Assembly (NCBI GenBank): GCA_020721645.1
Contig: DYMH01000013.1
Coordinates: 1 to 45,476, forward strand
Source: Draconibacterium orientale
GTDB lineage: Bacteria > Bacteroidota > Bacteroidia > Bacteroidales > JAADGE01
Reading direction: 5' to 3'
DNA length: 45,476 nt
The position numbers and the translations under genes are program-made. Positions within the stretch are counted from its first letter, which is position 1. Every line of letters begins with the position of its first letter. Positions 8,179-35,738 of the stretch are shown here, in pieces. The notes beneath the pieces were generated by a model. It was not told where the DNA came from. It made no database searches and worked only from the letters and a program-made list of their open reading frames with translations.

Positions 8179-8214
8179 AAACAAGGCAGAAAATAATTTC
8201 TGCCTTGTTTAATT
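8179..8214 (+). terminator. Hairpin terminator downstream of dnaA
   Basis: AAACAAGGCAGAAA (8179-8192) and TTTCTGCCTTGTTT (8197-8210) form a perfect 14-bp stem with the 4-base loop ATAA. The T tract after it is short (GTTTAATT), so it may act weakly as an intrinsic terminator or as a 3'-end stabiliser for the dnaA transcript; it also lies between convergent genes and could serve pabB. Confidence 0.7.
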
Positions 8215-8275
8215 ATACTAAGCACGCTCATAAATTGCGTTTTACAAATTGTTTAACTTTTTGATATTAAAAGTA

Positions 8276-8315
8276 ATCAGCATATCAGCACATCAAAAAA
8301 TCAACCAATCAAAGT
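8276..8315 (-). repeat. Short octamer array (5 units of ATCANNNN)
   Basis: Five exact-register 8-bp units on the plus strand: ATCAGCAT, ATCAGCAC, ATCAAAAA, ATCAACCA, ATCAAAGT. On the minus strand, the sense strand of pabB which ends 35 bases away, each reads NNNNTGAT. ATCAAAAA and ATCAACCA also occur as words in the large array at 12655-12918, linking the loci. Confidence 0.75.
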
Positions 8316-8350
8316 ATATATTGTAAACCCAAGCAAACTGCAAAAAAAAA

Positions 8351-10571: not shown

Positions 10572-12191
10572 ATGAAAAATCTGAAATTTCTTGTCGCATT
10601 TGCGTTCATTTTCATTATGTTGGGCGATTCGTGCAACAGCCTAAAAAAAGACAGAAGTAAAGGTGCCGTAAACGAAATGCCTGTAGATGAGCCGTATATG
10701 TTGAAAGAAGAAAAAACTAAAACCGATGAACTTGCAGATGTTACGATTCCGAACGAAAATCCGGAAACGATGAACACCGAAGAATATGACCACATTACCG
10801 AAAATGCATTTAAAAATGTGATACAAAATCCACTTTCTACTTTTTCGATTGATGTTGATAATGCTTCCTACTCCAATATCCGCAGATTTTTAAACAGCAA
10901 CCAACTGCCGGACAGAAACGCAGTTAGAATCGAAGAAATGATAAATTATTTCGATTACGATTATCCAAATCCTACGGGCTCGACACCGTTTTCATTTATC
11001 ACCGAAGTTTCCGATTGTCCGTGGAATCAGGCACACAAATTAATTCATATCGGCATTCACGGCAAAGAATTGGATTTGAAAGATATACGTCCTTCGAATT
11101 TGGTTTTCTTGCTTGATGTTTCGGGTTCTATGGACGATGCTGGCAAACTTCCGTTGTTAAAAAAAGCATTTTCTATGTTGGTTGATCAATTGGACGACCG
11201 CGACCGAATTTCGATTGTCGTATATGCCGGTGCGGCAGGTGTTATTCTTCCGCCCACTTCGGCATCGAAAAAAGATGTAATCAAAGAAGCTTTGAACAAA
11301 TTGCAAGCCGGGGGGGCAACAGCAGGCGGTCAAGGAATTGAACTGGCATACAAACAAGCAAAAGAGGCGTTTATTGCCGACGGAAATAATCGAGTGATTT
11401 TGGCTACCGACGGCGATTTCAATGTCGGTGTTTCTTCAACCGGTTCGTTGGTGGATTTGATTCAACAAAAACGCGATGATGGCATTTTCCTCACAATTCT
11501 GGGTTTCGGAATGGGCAATTACAAAGACGGTCGCATGGAACAAATCAGCAACGCCGGAAACGGAAATTATTTTTATATCGACAACATTCAGGAAGCAGAA
11601 AAAGTTTTCGTTAAAAACATGCGTGCCAACATGTTTACAATTGCCAAAGATGTAAAAATTCAAATCGAATTTAATCCTGCAAAAGTTAAAGAATATCGGT
11701 TGATTGGTTATGAAAACAGAATGTTGAATACCGAAGATTTTGAAGACGATAAAAAAGATGCCGGCGAACTCGGTCCGGGGCACACTGTTACGGCTTTATA
11801 CGAAATTGTTCCTGCGGGTGCTGCCGAAATTAATTCGAATCAGAGCAAATTGAAATATCAGGAATATAAAACCAACAATGCCGCCCAAACCGGAAACGAG
11901 TTGATGACTCTGAAATTCAGATACAAAAATCCGAAAGAAGACAAGAGTATTTTGGTTGAAACTCCTGTTATCGATGAAAAAATATCCCTTGACAAAACTT
12001 CCGATAATTTCAGATTTGCCGCTGCAGTTGCAGGTTTTGGAATGATTCTGAGAAAATCAGAATATAAGGGCAAAGCCGATTTCGAAATGATTTCAAATTT
12101 GGCTTCCGGAGCAAAAGGAAAAGATACAGACGGTTATCGGGCTGAATTTATAAAACTTGTGAAAACGGCTGAATTGTTGAGTAAAAATTAA
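10572..12191 (+). CDS. vWA-domain lipoprotein with DUF3520 C-terminus (YfbK-like)
   Basis: A 539-residue predicted lipoprotein (MKNLKFLVAFAFIFIML then GDSC, Cys near residue 21). After a low-complexity linker comes the vWF_A N-terminal family domain (NPLSTFSIDVDNASYSNIRRF, about 85-110), then a von Willebrand A domain with the MIDAS DVSGS near residues 182-186 and ATDGDFNVG near 278, which should bind a divalent metal, and a DUF3520-type C-terminal region ending KLVKTAELL. The family is sometimes annotated as a Ca-activated channel-like protein, but binding or scaffolding at the cell surface is the safer view. It is a single gene; its TAA overlaps the first unit of an octamer array. Confidence 0.9.
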   Translation: MKNLKFLVAFAFIFIMLGDSCNSLKKDRSKGAVNEMPVDEPYMLKEEKTKTDELADVTIPNENPETMNTEEYDHITENAFKNVIQNPLSTFSIDVDNASYSNIRRFLNSNQLPDRNAVRIEEMINYFDYDYPNPTGSTPFSFITEVSDCPWNQAHKLIHIGIHGKELDLKDIRPSNLVFLLDVSGSMDDAGKLPLLKKAFSMLVDQLDDRDRISIVVYAGAAGVILPPTSASKKDVIKEALNKLQAGGATAGGQGIELAYKQAKEAFIADGNNRVILATDGDFNVGVSSTGSLVDLIQQKRDDGIFLTILGFGMGNYKDGRMEQISNAGNGNYFYIDNIQEAEKVFVKNMRANMFTIAKDVKIQIEFNPAKVKEYRLIGYENRMLNTEDFEDDKKDAGELGPGHTVTALYEIVPAGAAEINSNQSKLKYQEYKTNNAAQTGNELMTLKFRYKNPKEDKSILVETPVIDEKISLDKTSDNFRFAAAVAGFGMILRKSEYKGKADFEMISNLASGAKGKDTDGYRAEFIKLVKTAELLSKN

Positions 12192-12253
12192 ATTGATGTG
12201 TTGATGTGATGATTTGCTGATTGGTTGATGTGTTGATTTGGTGATGTGTTGAT
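12190..12253 (+). repeat. Octamer array, 8 units reading NNNNTGAT
   Basis: Eight perfectly phased units on the plus strand: AAATTGAT, GTGTTGAT, GTGATGAT, TTGCTGAT, TGGTTGAT, GTGTTGAT, TTGGTGAT, GTGTTGAT; a ninth, TAATTGGT, is decayed. The first unit overlaps the vWA stop codon (TAA 12189-12191) and the last touches the stop of the convergent four-helix-bundle gene. The orientation is opposite to the array at 12655-12918. Confidence 0.85.
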
Positions 12254-12609: not shown

Positions 12610-12654
12610 TTTCTTATCTTTTATTTTTACATAATTTTCGCAAAATTATCACAT

Positions 12655-12918
12655 ATCAACCAATCACCAAATCATCACATCACCCCATCAACCAATCATC
12701 ACATCATCACATCACCAAATCAACCAATCACCAAATCATCACATCACCAAATCATCACATCACCAAATCATCACATCACCCCATCAACCAATCATCACAT
12801 CACCCCATCAACCAATCATCACATCATCACATCACCAAATCATCACATCACCCAATCAACCAATCATCACATCATCACATCACCAAATCATCACATCAAC
12901 ACATCATCACATCAAAAA
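12655..12918 (-). repeat. Large octamer array, 33 units of ATCANNNN
   Basis: 33 consecutive 8-bp units without one insertion or deletion. ATCA is invariant; the second half is drawn from seven words: TCAC (14 times), CCAA (7), ACCA (6), CCCC (3), CCCA, ACAC and AAAA (once each). CCCC and CCCA are always followed by an ACCA unit, so there is higher-order structure. The minus strand, sense for the saccharopine-dehydrogenase-family gene, reads NNNNTGAT, and the last units supply that gene's final codons and TGA stop (12907-12909). The plus strand is open in frame but gives only a low-complexity His/Thr/Ser/Asn string. Confidence 0.95.
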
Positions 12919-14244
12919 CTCTTCTTCCACAAACCGAATTCCGTATTCTTTCAATTCTTCCAAAACCGGCAAATAGAAATTTTTCGTTACCGGAATGTGA
13001 ACGCCTTTTTCTTTGAAAACGCCCGTTAGAATCATTTTCACCGCAATTGCAACAGGCACACCGACTGTTATCGACATGGCAGTGTGAACCGTATCTCTGC
13101 CTTCAACAACGAGCGATGATTTTATGCGGTGCTTTTTACCGTCTTTTTCGTAATCAAAAATATGTTGCATGGCAATCAAATCCTTGTCTTCCGGGGCAAG
13201 TTGCCATTTTTCTTCGAGGATTTTTTGAAGAACCTGAGCCGGTGTCGCATGTTTCAACCCAATTTTTGTATCTTTGAAAATGCCCAGCCAGCGCAGTTTG
13301 TACATGATTTCGGAATCCAAATCTACTTTCAGAAATTTTGCCAGACTTTTTTCTGTTTTATCAAGACACTCATTATTCAAAAATGTGTTGATAAACTCCC
13401 GATACGTCATGTTTTCCGAATTTTCGATTGCAAACGAATCGTCGGTTGCACCGAGTTGCACAAACGTATCCCAAGCCTTTGCAAACCCCGGACGGCGCAT
13501 TGTTCCGCGAATCATGGTCGGGATATTTTCGATATTGTACGGTTTGCGATATTTCAGCGAATCGCGATTGCAATATACTTCAAACTCGCCGTAATTCAGC
13601 ACTTCGATTCGCGATGTTCGCTTGAACAATTGATGATACGGAATGAATTTATATCGCCCGTTTTCGATAATTTGTGCCGAACCGCCGGCTCCCGCCAACA
13701 CAACGTTTCGCGGATTCCACGTAAATTTATAATTCCATGGATTGTTGTCATATTTCGGTGCAACGAGTCCGCCGGTGTACGATTGAAAAGAAGTCAGTTT
13801 TCCGCCCTGCTCCTTTATTCTGTCTATTATTAGCATCGCCGACATGTGGTCGATTCCCGGGTCCACGCCGATTTCGTTCATCATCATAATTCCTGCTTTT
13901 TCGGCTTCTTCCGACAATGCCTTCATTTCGGGCGAAACATAAGACGCCGTAACCATATCTTTTTTAAATTTCACGCAACATTCCGCCGCCAAATAGTGAA
14001 AACGTGCGGGGAGCATCGAAACCGTCAAATCCGATTCCGAGATTTCTTTTTCGCGTTGCGATTCGTTAAAAATGTCAAATTCTATGGCTTCGCCGTTTTT
14101 GTGCCCACCGATTTTGCGTTGTGCCGTTTCCAAAGAAACATCACCCACCTTGATTTTCCAATCCAATTTTTCGGACTGATCAAGAAGATACTGAATTAAT
14201 GTAGAAGACGATAAACCAGCTCCGATGACAAATATTGTTTTCAT
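12907..14244 (-). CDS. Saccharopine dehydrogenase-family oxidoreductase
   Basis: A 445-residue protein with an N-terminal Rossmann fold (VIGAGLSSSTLIQYLL, residues 5-20, a variant of GxGxxG) and the family segment NEIGVDPGIDHMSAM near 130-145, followed by the catalytic-domain phrases SYTGGLVAP and NPWNYKFTWNPRNVV. Proteins like this are annotated as saccharopine dehydrogenase or reductase, interconverting saccharopine with lysine/2-oxoglutarate or glutamate/aminoadipate semialdehyde using NAD(P). Ornithine aminotransferase lies just upstream on the same strand, consistent with amino-acid catabolism, but a terminator separates them. The last residues before the stop are encoded by octamer-array DNA. 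The exact substrate is not provable. Confidence 0.88.
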   Translation of the reverse strand: MKTIFVIGAGLSSSTLIQYLLDQSEKLDWKIKVGDVSLETAQRKIGGHKNGEAIEFDIFNESQREKEISESDLTVSMLPARFHYLAAECCVKFKKDMVTASYVSPEMKALSEEAEKAGIMMMNEIGVDPGIDHMSAMLIIDRIKEQGGKLTSFQSYTGGLVAPKYDNNPWNYKFTWNPRNVVLAGAGGSAQIIENGRYKFIPYHQLFKRTSRIEVLNYGEFEVYCNRDSLKYRKPYNIENIPTMIRGTMRRPGFAKAWDTFVQLGATDDSFAIENSENMTYREFINTFLNNECLDKTEKSLAKFLKVDLDSEIMYKLRWLGIFKDTKIGLKHATPAQVLQKILEEKWQLAPEDKDLIAMQHIFDYEKDGKKHRIKSSLVVEGRDTVHTAMSITVGVPVAIAVKMILTGVFKEKGVHIPVTKNFYLPVLEELKEYGIRFVEEEFLM

Positions 14245-20315: not shown

Positions 20316-20411
20316 AAAGTGAAAAGTGAATAGTGAAAAGTGAATAGTGAATAGTGAATAGTGAATAGTGAATAGTGAATAGTGAATAGTGAAAAGTGAA
20401 AAGTGAAAAGT
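20314..20411 (+). repeat. Fourteen-unit 7-bp array at the usp stop codon
   Basis: Exact-register units running AAAAAGT, GAAAAGT, GAATAGT, GAAAAGT, then seven GAATAGT, then three GAAAAGT. It begins inside the usp stop codon. In unit-spanning phase every unit gives AGTGA, so TGA recurs every 7 bases and falls in all three frames on the sense strand; GAATAGT adds TAG. No indels. The last units form the 5' arm of a terminator hairpin. Confidence 0.95.
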
Positions 20412-20439
20412 GAAATTAAATCATTTTTCACTTTTTTTT
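20406..20439 (+). terminator. AT-rich terminator built partly from the heptamer array
   Basis: AAAAGTGAAA (20406-20415) pairs with TTTCACTTTT (20426-20435) around a 10-base loop and runs into further T residues. The left arm is the final array heptamer; the right arm is unique. It would terminate the usp transcript after the array. Confidence 0.55.
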
Positions 20440-20447
20440 ATTTCTGC

Positions 20448-20679
20448 ATCAACACATCATCACATCAAAAAATCATCACATCATCACATCAAAAAATCAT
20501 CACATCATCACATCATCACATCAAAAAATCATCACATCATCACATCATCACATCAAAAAATCATCACATCAAAAAATCATCACATCAAAAAATCATCACA
20601 TTAAAAAATCATCACATCATCACATCATCACATCAAAAAATCATCACATCAAAAAATCATCACATCAAACTATCAAACC
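20448..20679 (-). repeat. Octamer array of 29 units, mostly two words
   Basis: 29 phased 8-bp units, ATCA (ATTA once) plus TCAC (16 times), AAAA (10, counting the ATTA unit), ACAC (1), AACT (1) or AACC (1). No indels. It ends inside the RelA/SpoT gene: the last unit (20672-20679) contains that gene's stop TGA on the minus strand and part of the final valine codon region. Sense-strand reading is NNNNTGAT. It starts 9 bases after the usp terminator. The plus-strand reading is a low-complexity His/Ile/Thr/Ser/Lys string, not a protein. Confidence 0.95.
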
Positions 20680-33846: not shown

Positions 33847-33896
33847 TGAGTTATTTGTTTTAGTAATTAATAGATACTTCTTAGTTGTTAGAAAAA

Positions 33897-33931
33897 TTTC
33901 AATTGTCAATTGTCAATTGTCAATTTTCAAT
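33897..33931 (-). repeat. Five-unit 7-bp array at the ketosynthase stop codon, inside the operon
   Basis: Plus strand units: TTTCAAT, TGTCAAT, TGTCAAT, TGTCAAT, TTTCAAT. The last one contains the TGA stop (minus strand, 33929-33927) of the 603-residue ketosynthase gene. On the sense strand each unit reads ATTGACA or ATTGAAA, so TGA recurs every 7 bases and covers all frames. Each CAATTG junction is also self-complementary. Confidence 0.85.
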
Positions 33932-35738
33932 TAAAATAAATTGATTTCAAATTTTGTGTGTCAAAGATAGTTTTTTCATCAATATTTTCAAGTTTTTCGA
34001 TAAAATATAAAACCGCTTCGTGTCCTGCGTGCGGATAATCATAGTCCACTCGCCCTATTATAGCGGCTTTCGCTCGTCCCATTCGGAATAAAATTTCTGT
34101 ATAATTTTTCAAAAATTCGGGGTCAAATTTTTCGGAAATAAAGACGCAGTTTTCACCCTTAATCCCATGTCGAATAGAAATTTCACCTACCATAACATTT
34201 GCCAGTGTATATACAAAAACAGAAGGTGCCGGAAAATAATCTGCTCTATTTTTTATTGTTTCAAAATATTTGGCATCGGTATCCGACGATGAACTGCCGT
34301 TAGAAAGGATTATTGCAATATCTTCCGGATTATATTTTTGCTTGAAATTTGTTTCGTTCAGTAGAATTTCACTTGCCAAAAATGCTATTTTACTCAAATT
34401 ATCCATTTTATAGAATTTTGGATAGCTGATATTGAGATATTTGTAAAGACTTTTAGAGAAATCGGCAAAATCTGAATAGTTATCATGCAAAAAAATATTT
34501 TTTCCATTTACGGATGCGTGCGAAGCACGAATGATTACATTTTTTGTGATATTTAATTTCGGTTTATGAATCTCGAATTTTTCTTTATATTCTTGTGATT
34601 TTGATAGAATTAAAGCTGCATTTACGCCGCCGAAACCCGATGCTGTTTTCACAACTGTTTTAAGAGGTATCAATCTTTTTTCTTTTCGAATATTGATATT
34701 ATTGGGAATACCATGATTTTCGTATCCTAAATTTGTGTAAACTTCATTTCTTTTTATTGATTCAAAGGCGACTATTGTTTCAATAATTCCTGCCGCAGCA
34801 AATGTATGTCCAATATATGATTTTATGGCACTTACCGGCACGGTTTCTAAGTTCGATAAGCAAATTGCTTTGCCTTCGCTCTCATCGTTGAACAAAGTGG
34901 CGGTGCCGTGTGCCGAAATCATATCAATATTTGCTGGGGTCATACCTGCTTCGTTCATGGCAATATTTATTGCCCACGATAATTCGGCTCCTGTTCGCGA
35001 AGGACCGGAAATGTGATTGGCATCGTTTGAATTTCCGCCGCCGATAAGAGCAATTTTTTCGACTGTCGAAAATTGTTCGAATTTAGTAAGAATCAGTGTG
35101 CCTGCCCCTTCGCCGGGCGTCATGCCATCACGGGCAGCATCGAACGGACGACAAGCTTGTGAACTTACCGCTTTGAATGCAATAAAACCCGAAAGCGTAA
35201 ATTCCGATAAAATGTCTGCTCCCACAACAACGGCGTTATCGTACATTCCCGAATCTATCAAACGCTTTGCTGTTATCAATGCCAAACCTCCTGAAATACA
35301 GGCATTTGAAATGATTAAAGGTCGATTGGGATGCATAAAAAAATCGGCTGTAATTTGAGCTGATTTCCATAAATGAAGCCGATTTTCGTGGTATTTTTCT
35401 TTCATTTTATCGTCCAACAAATCAATGTTTCCTTTGGTGGTCGATATTATAAGTATGGTTCGTGAATCGCGAATATCAATTTTAGTTTGTTTCAAAGCAT
35501 CGGAAACCGAAAGAATCACAAATTTCTCGAAACGTGTAAAATTTGTATTGTTACTTATCTCAACAAATCGTTGTTCTAATAGCTCATTATTTACTATTGA
35601 TACAGCAACTGTTTCAGGAACCATTTTTTTATCGTCAAGAATCGTAATACCGGAAATTCCCTGACTTATTTTTTCGATATTTTCCGTAGTTGTAAAACCG
35701 AGTGAAGTAACTATATTTGTTGAGCTGATGTAAACCAT
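33927..35738 (-). CDS. Beta-ketoacyl synthase with C-terminal half-KS domain
   Basis: A 603-residue protein. Residues about 1-380 are a complete FabF-like ketosynthase with Cys in SNACISGG (near 146), His in SAHGTATLFND (near 279) and His in KSYIGHTFAAAG (near 316). A second part, about 400-600, looks like the first half of a KS fold in the PF13723 style: SKIAFLASEILL, IAIILSNGSSSSDTD, and FPAPSVFVYTLANVMVGEIS, followed by RAKAAIIGRVDYD. At the nucleophile position it has E or K, so this part is not catalytic. It resembles the free-standing CLF-like gene of the same locus and may act as a built-in chain-length partner. The stop sits in a heptamer array. Confidence 0.85.
   Translation of the reverse strand: MVYISSTNIVTSLGFTTTENIEKISQGISGITILDDKKMVPETVAVSIVNNELLEQRFVEISNNTNFTRFEKFVILSVSDALKQTKIDIRDSRTILIISTTKGNIDLLDDKMKEKYHENRLHLWKSAQITADFFMHPNRPLIISNACISGGLALITAKRLIDSGMYDNAVVVGADILSEFTLSGFIAFKAVSSQACRPFDAARDGMTPGEGAGTLILTKFEQFSTVEKIALIGGGNSNDANHISGPSRTGAELSWAINIAMNEAGMTPANIDMISAHGTATLFNDESEGKAICLSNLETVPVSAIKSYIGHTFAAAGIIETIVAFESIKRNEVYTNLGYENHGIPNNINIRKEKRLIPLKTVVKTASGFGGVNAALILSKSQEYKEKFEIHKPKLNITKNVIIRASHASVNGKNIFLHDNYSDFADFSKSLYKYLNISYPKFYKMDNLSKIAFLASEILLNETNFKQKYNPEDIAIILSNGSSSSDTDAKYFETIKNRADYFPAPSVFVYTLANVMVGEISIRHGIKGENCVFISEKFDPEFLKNYTEILFRMGRAKAAIIGRVDYDYPHAGHEAVLYFIEKLENIDEKTIFDTQNLKSIYFN

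Follow-up and report, generated by a model that had tools for sequence, protein, structure and literature searches.

Genes of the IVP family (PF05635, 23S_rRNA_IVP), in Bacteroidota and on cyanobacterial plasmids alike, lie between two arrays of short tandem words that are inverted copies of each other, and the two arms around a gene co-vary. Across unrelated sites, the more closely related the IVPs, the more alike their arm words; the repeat period, 7 or 8 nucleotides (nt), goes with the clade of the IVP, including where the words themselves differ. The example described here comes from Draconibacterium orientale (assembly GCA_020721645.1), in which contig DYMH01000013.1, positions 1 to 45,476, is referred to as the window. 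In it, a strict octamer array at 12655-12918 forms the arm nearest the promoter in a compact unit made up of an inverted word array, an IVP gene, and a second word array (Table 1). A previous reading, made from the sequence alone, had drawn attention to the array and had overlooked its inverted partner at 12194-12253 as well as the gene between the arms.

Inverted word arrays around IVP genes

An IVP was present in 193 of the 247 genomes from the phylum Bacteroidota. Sets of IVP loci were taken from 19 genomes of the same bacterial family, from across the phylum, and from cyanobacterial plasmids; they are weighted to the best-scoring IVPs, many of the genomes are drafts, and neighboring genes were called by simple open reading frame (ORF) rules. 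The genome that contains the window has six IVP genes, and the short words flanking them are different at each gene. A score for inverted flanks reached a median of 36 in 86 family loci, versus 18 when the arms were swapped between loci (p=3e-32) and 19 in 257 control ORFs. When these 257 ORFs, drawn from 374 kb of the window's own genome, were ranked blindly, IVP genes came out among the very top, and several of the top "controls" were themselves IVPs. Surveys of this genome, here and below, are based on sampled stretches.

The inverted flanks were replicated in 51 loci across the phylum (p=2e-22) and in 10 loci on cyanobacterial plasmids (p=2e-5). With the flanks restricted to the intergenic gap, the 153 loci from Bacteroidota and cyanobacterial plasmids together gave a z of 48.6 against swapped arms (0/20,000 permutations); a locus's own downstream arm ranked first of 153 in 54 cases and within the top 5% in 110. 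Matching of arms within the window's IVP clade gave a z of 10.8. Co-variation is seen at the thiolase junction of a fatty-acid operon, where the words of 21 IVP loci from across the phylum vary by species and the arm pairs match all the same (z=9.3, 0/20,000).

As to genomic position, an IVP gene is conserved phylum-wide between the hydroxyacyl-CoA dehydrogenase and thiolase genes, or at the next junction (L031, L207, L210, L294, L300, and L336, among others). On cyanobacterial plasmids, IVP genes also lie beside XisI/XisH (L346 and L349) and in a DISARM-like locus (L353).

Words and period across the IVP clade

Four IVPs of the family with ATCA-type arms, from four genomes and three sites, form an exclusive clade among the 146 compared. 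At unrelated sites, similar words were seen in 1.5% of pairs with low protein similarity, in 64% of those with a similarity of 0.7 to 0.8, and in 85% of those above 0.8 (0/2,000 permutations).

A search with the window IVP returned a clade bounded by a clear score gap (112 versus 102 bits). The prediction that all close relatives of this IVP carry strict ATCA arms failed, with such arms at 8 of the 47 clade loci above the gap. The wider rule of the clade is an octamer period, not strict ATCA: the period is 8 nt in 50 of 51 clade loci and 7 nt in 125 of the 162 loci outside the clade (Fisher p=1e-23). This rule was first noticed on the same clade loci and was compared afterwards with other IVPs, a tree, and pairs with different words, and the tree and the different-word comparison are therefore the weightier checks. 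A tree of 171 IVPs needs 8 period changes, versus 54 for shuffled labels (minimum 42). Among pairs at unrelated sites that have different words, the share agreeing in period climbs with protein similarity, from 47% through 81% to 90%. By our reading of the word lists, clade words fit roughly CANATYNN, of which ATCANNNN is a local form.

The unit in the window and its octamer array

The unit is best read as a discrete insertion, because the two convergent genes adjoin without it in one relative (in L364, some 100 bp containing a simple hairpin separate them) and two further loci, L361 and L369, have a short array of another word at this junction and no ATCA array. Homology between loci is confined to the IVP gene and its arms. 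Among the family orthologs of the upstream neighbor that were examined, only the one in this genome adjoins an ATCA array.

Table 1. The unit and related features of the window
Feature	Position	Strand	Description
Upstream (5') arm	12647..12918	-	33 phased octamers and one degenerate edge unit; resembles (TGATGTGA) when read along the sense strand of IVP
Upstream-arm segment matching the entire downstream arm in inverted form	12823..12882	-	54/60 matches, no gap
IVP gene, 118 aa	12253..12609	-	PF05635 23S_rRNA_IVP, four-helix bundle (Pfam, AlphaFold, PDB match)
Downstream (3') arm	12194..12253	-	7 to 8 ATCANNNN octamers, inverse to the upstream arm
Upstream neighbor, saccharopine-dehydrogenase-like	12907..14244	-	Stop codon within the array
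Downstream convergent neighbor, YfbK-like VWA protein	10572..12191	+	
Solo ATCA array	20447..20669	+	16-bp double unit ATCATCACATCAAAAA, no IVP; beside the 3' end of a RelA/SpoT-like gene
MITE-like (miniature inverted-repeat transposable element) repeat	8214..8318	+	105 bp with five phased ATCA octamers; about 40 genome copies

When 12655-12918 is split into octamers, the counts of the sequence-only reading are reproduced exactly: 33 phased ATCANNNN units with zero indels, each starting with ATCA, and seven words in the second half (TCAC 14, CCAA 7, ACCA 6, CCCC 3, and CCCA, ACAC, and AAAA once each). At the edge of the array, the preceding unit at 12647, TATCACAT, is in phase but degenerate. 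ACCA follows CCCC or CCCA in 4/4 cases, again as described. A four-unit block, TCAC-CCC(C/A)-ACCA-TCAC, is repeated, and the higher-order word order looks like multi-unit block duplication; no evidence was found for the templated or recombinational writing that had been suggested. In the genome at large, the pattern (ATCANNNN)3ATCA exceeds chance, with 409 matches versus 0 for a reversed-pattern control, and the contrast between a conserved and a variable half recurs. Invariance of ATCA, which holds for all 33 units here, gives way in that wider set to 88 to 94% conservation at positions 1 to 4 (46, 76, 81, and 60% at positions 5 to 8), with ATCC, ATCG, and ATTA as variants. The number and length of ATCA arrays are underestimated, because several draft contigs (L042, L043, L044, and L021) terminate within them. 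A role of ATCA as a general bacterial octamer was discarded, as the matches outside Bacteroidota in the pattern scan are mostly homogeneous simple octamers.

What does one frozen half say about slippage? The sequence-only reading had held that ordinary slippage cannot give such a pattern. In a simulation of slippage plus point mutation, conditioned on 33 units and seven words, 16% of runs ended with four or more invariant columns and 2.3% with four contiguous ones. The claim was therefore too strong for one array, whose evidence against slippage is suggestive only, and the argument from this array by itself was dropped. Stop-codon use had been offered as another constraint on the words. The stop codon of the upstream gene does fall inside the array, yet this is not a general rule, since words without stop codons serve as arms at other loci.

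The window holds further short repeats. Copies of the MITE-like repeat (L380-L409) are 90 to 100% identical and end in TATACT/AGTATA, possibly with a TA target site; one of them, L409, has an extra octamer. A 7-bp array, (AGTGAAT)14, lies at 20318-20414, just before the solo ATCA array, and a short 7-bp array of AATTGTC lies between two minus-strand genes at 33895-33932.

The IVP protein, a proposed mechanism, and its rivals

The window IVP matches PF05635 with an E value of 2.6e-23 (82.7 bits, against a cutoff of 33.8), and its AlphaFold model has a pLDDT of 94. The best PDB match of the model is the S23 protein 2RLD (TM 0.82-0.86), with 2GSC also matching; Avd (4DWL) has the same fold at a TM of about 0.73. 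The 2RLD and 2GSC entries contain chains A to E, and Xcc0516 is described as five four-helix bundles in the title of a reference that PMC3936711 cites, all of which suggests a pentameric, ring-like assembly for IVP. The protein is under purifying selection, with a dN/dS of 0.02 to 0.18 in seven of eight IVP pairs; the value of 0.64 for the eighth pair probably reflects a comparison of different genes, since there are two IVPs in L230. The alignment columns that best separate 7-nt from 8-nt IVPs, a separation confounded by phylogeny, are Lys66 and a two-residue deletion after position 92.

How might a protein and the period of a repeat come to be linked? We hold, with moderate confidence, that the word-array arms and the IVP form one unit in which an IVP oligomer reads the arrays. 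The sequence-only reading had imagined a protein that reads TGAT every 8 bp; the adjacent IVP is a concrete candidate for such a reader because repeat period and words track its clade, and the binding itself we infer. The oligomer, putatively a ring pentamer by the five chains of its solved homologs, would bind the array with one word per subunit, and the spacing of the subunits would set the repeat period. The contacted half-word (ATCA here, roughly CANATYNN across the clade) would be frozen while the spacer half drifts. Array length would be altered by slippage, which is probably the right account of length changes, and the arms may be kept alike by inter-arm copying or by shared recognition. 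The unit could then spread as a small cassette, either selfish or regulatory; host functions are invoked for this step because the unit, whose sole ORF is the IVP, encodes no transposase. More tentatively, and as something we would rate below an even chance, IVP units may be phylum-spanning minimal selfish elements, the oligomer reading and perhaps shaping its own word arrays and the distance between its subunits determining whether the period is 7 or 8 nt; many of the short tandem repeats that have long lacked an explanation in Bacteroidota and Cyanobacteria may then belong to such units as arms or be isolated remnants of them.

Several observations weigh against this account. (i) At some IVP loci (L225, L209, and L280) the flanking words are direct, not inverted. 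(ii) Of the 47 clade loci that protein similarity identified, only 8 have strict TGAT/ATCA phasing. (iii) Related loci are not independent, which weakens the clade statistics, though words turn over while the period stays. (iv) Lag 8 exceeds lag 7 in 35 of 155 nonclade IVPs, mostly within a few other clades, and one clade member, L462, has a period of 7. (v) Flanks with a 7/8 periodicity occur in 32% of control ORFs of the window's genome, versus 80% of IVPs. (vi) Arrays of AATTATG are abundant in genome G003, where no IVP with an AATTATG word was seen; solo arrays are therefore not strictly in need of a cognate IVP, and a dependence on one in the same genome was unsupported for this word.

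The first rival is a plain mobile element, in which the arms would be terminal inverted repeats passed on together with the gene, the period mere baggage, and contact with the protein absent. The empty site in L364, the confinement of homology to the unit, and the similarity of words among closely related IVPs at unrelated sites would all fit. Mere inheritance, however, does not lead one to expect a period that outlasts the divergence of the words, or arms that change together in place at a conserved operon junction, and an element of this kind would have to move without a transposase. We regard it as unlikely.

Similarly improbable is an RNA-level intervening sequence (IVS), with the arms pairing as a long stem, the IVP ORF in the loop, RNase III cutting the stem, and compensatory selection keeping the arms complementary. 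There is precedent in the Coxiella IVS, whose 28-bp terminal inverted-repeat stem is cut by RNase III (PMC4990558). IVP is co-directional with both neighbors in 122 of 139 loci, versus 59% of control ORFs; a folding energy of -210 kcal/mol (z -7.5) is computed for the sense strand of the unit in the window; and the arms co-vary at the orthologous junction. Such a stem is nevertheless not supported, because the G.U excess expected on the sense RNA is absent: arm mismatches number 196 of the wobble type versus 258 of the mirror type, a negative result for an rRNA-IVS-like stem. The window unit, moreover, sits between convergent genes, and a stem alone leaves the tandem words and the clade-specific period unexplained. 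As for passive slippage expanding arrays from any seed, with IVP genes merely among them, the commonness of 7/8-bp arrays in this genome, the simulated invariant halves (2.3-16%), and the visible block duplications are in its favor, but it is strongly disfavored as a full account and very improbable, being contradicted by the swapped-arm and control-gene tests, by the tracking of IVP clade by word and period, and by the replication of the results across other families and in a second phylum.

The unit has relatives among known systems. The IVS of 23S rRNA with an S23/IVP ORF shares PF05635, an ORF within terminal inverted repeats, and a size of about 0.4 to 0.7 kb; unlike it, the present unit sits between two protein genes and has arms of 7- or 8-nt word arrays in place of one unique stem, and an Rfam scan of the window gave no match. 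Heptamer repeats (STRR, TAACTGA; PMC4679880) are likewise short tandem intergenic words with several per genome. They are known from Beggiatoaceae, Cyanobacteria, and Bacteroidetes, with mechanism unknown (PMC4679880). The window array works like an octamer variant of STRR: STRR words are 7 nt long, as in many other arrays of this genome, whereas here the clade has 8-nt words, the words bracket an IVP gene inversely, and the period follows the IVP clade. Avd of diversity-generating retroelements (4DWL, 8UB7) has the IVP fold, and its kinship with PF05635 has been noted (PMC10053308); here the flanks are tandem words, and among the neighbor genes scanned, the part of the window that the reverse transcriptase scan covered, there was no reverse transcriptase or other retroelement part. 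PF05635 genes have been reported in cas loci, often inside operons (PMC3936711, PMC10910872), and the relevant passages of these papers do not describe flanking word arrays; at loci L348, L351, and L354 on cyanobacterial plasmids, IVP genes lie between or beside cas1/cas2. A search of the open-access literature turned up no publication that connects IVP genes with word arrays; subscription journals were largely outside this search, so novelty is unproven.

Overall, two old puzzles without a known job, the arrays of short tandem words and the IVP proteins, are now linked. The link between protein clade and repeat period is a testable handle on which protein meets which array and why the word is 7 or 8 nt long. 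The same link also makes IVP a candidate model for how a protein family might recognize sequence in a register-dependent way.
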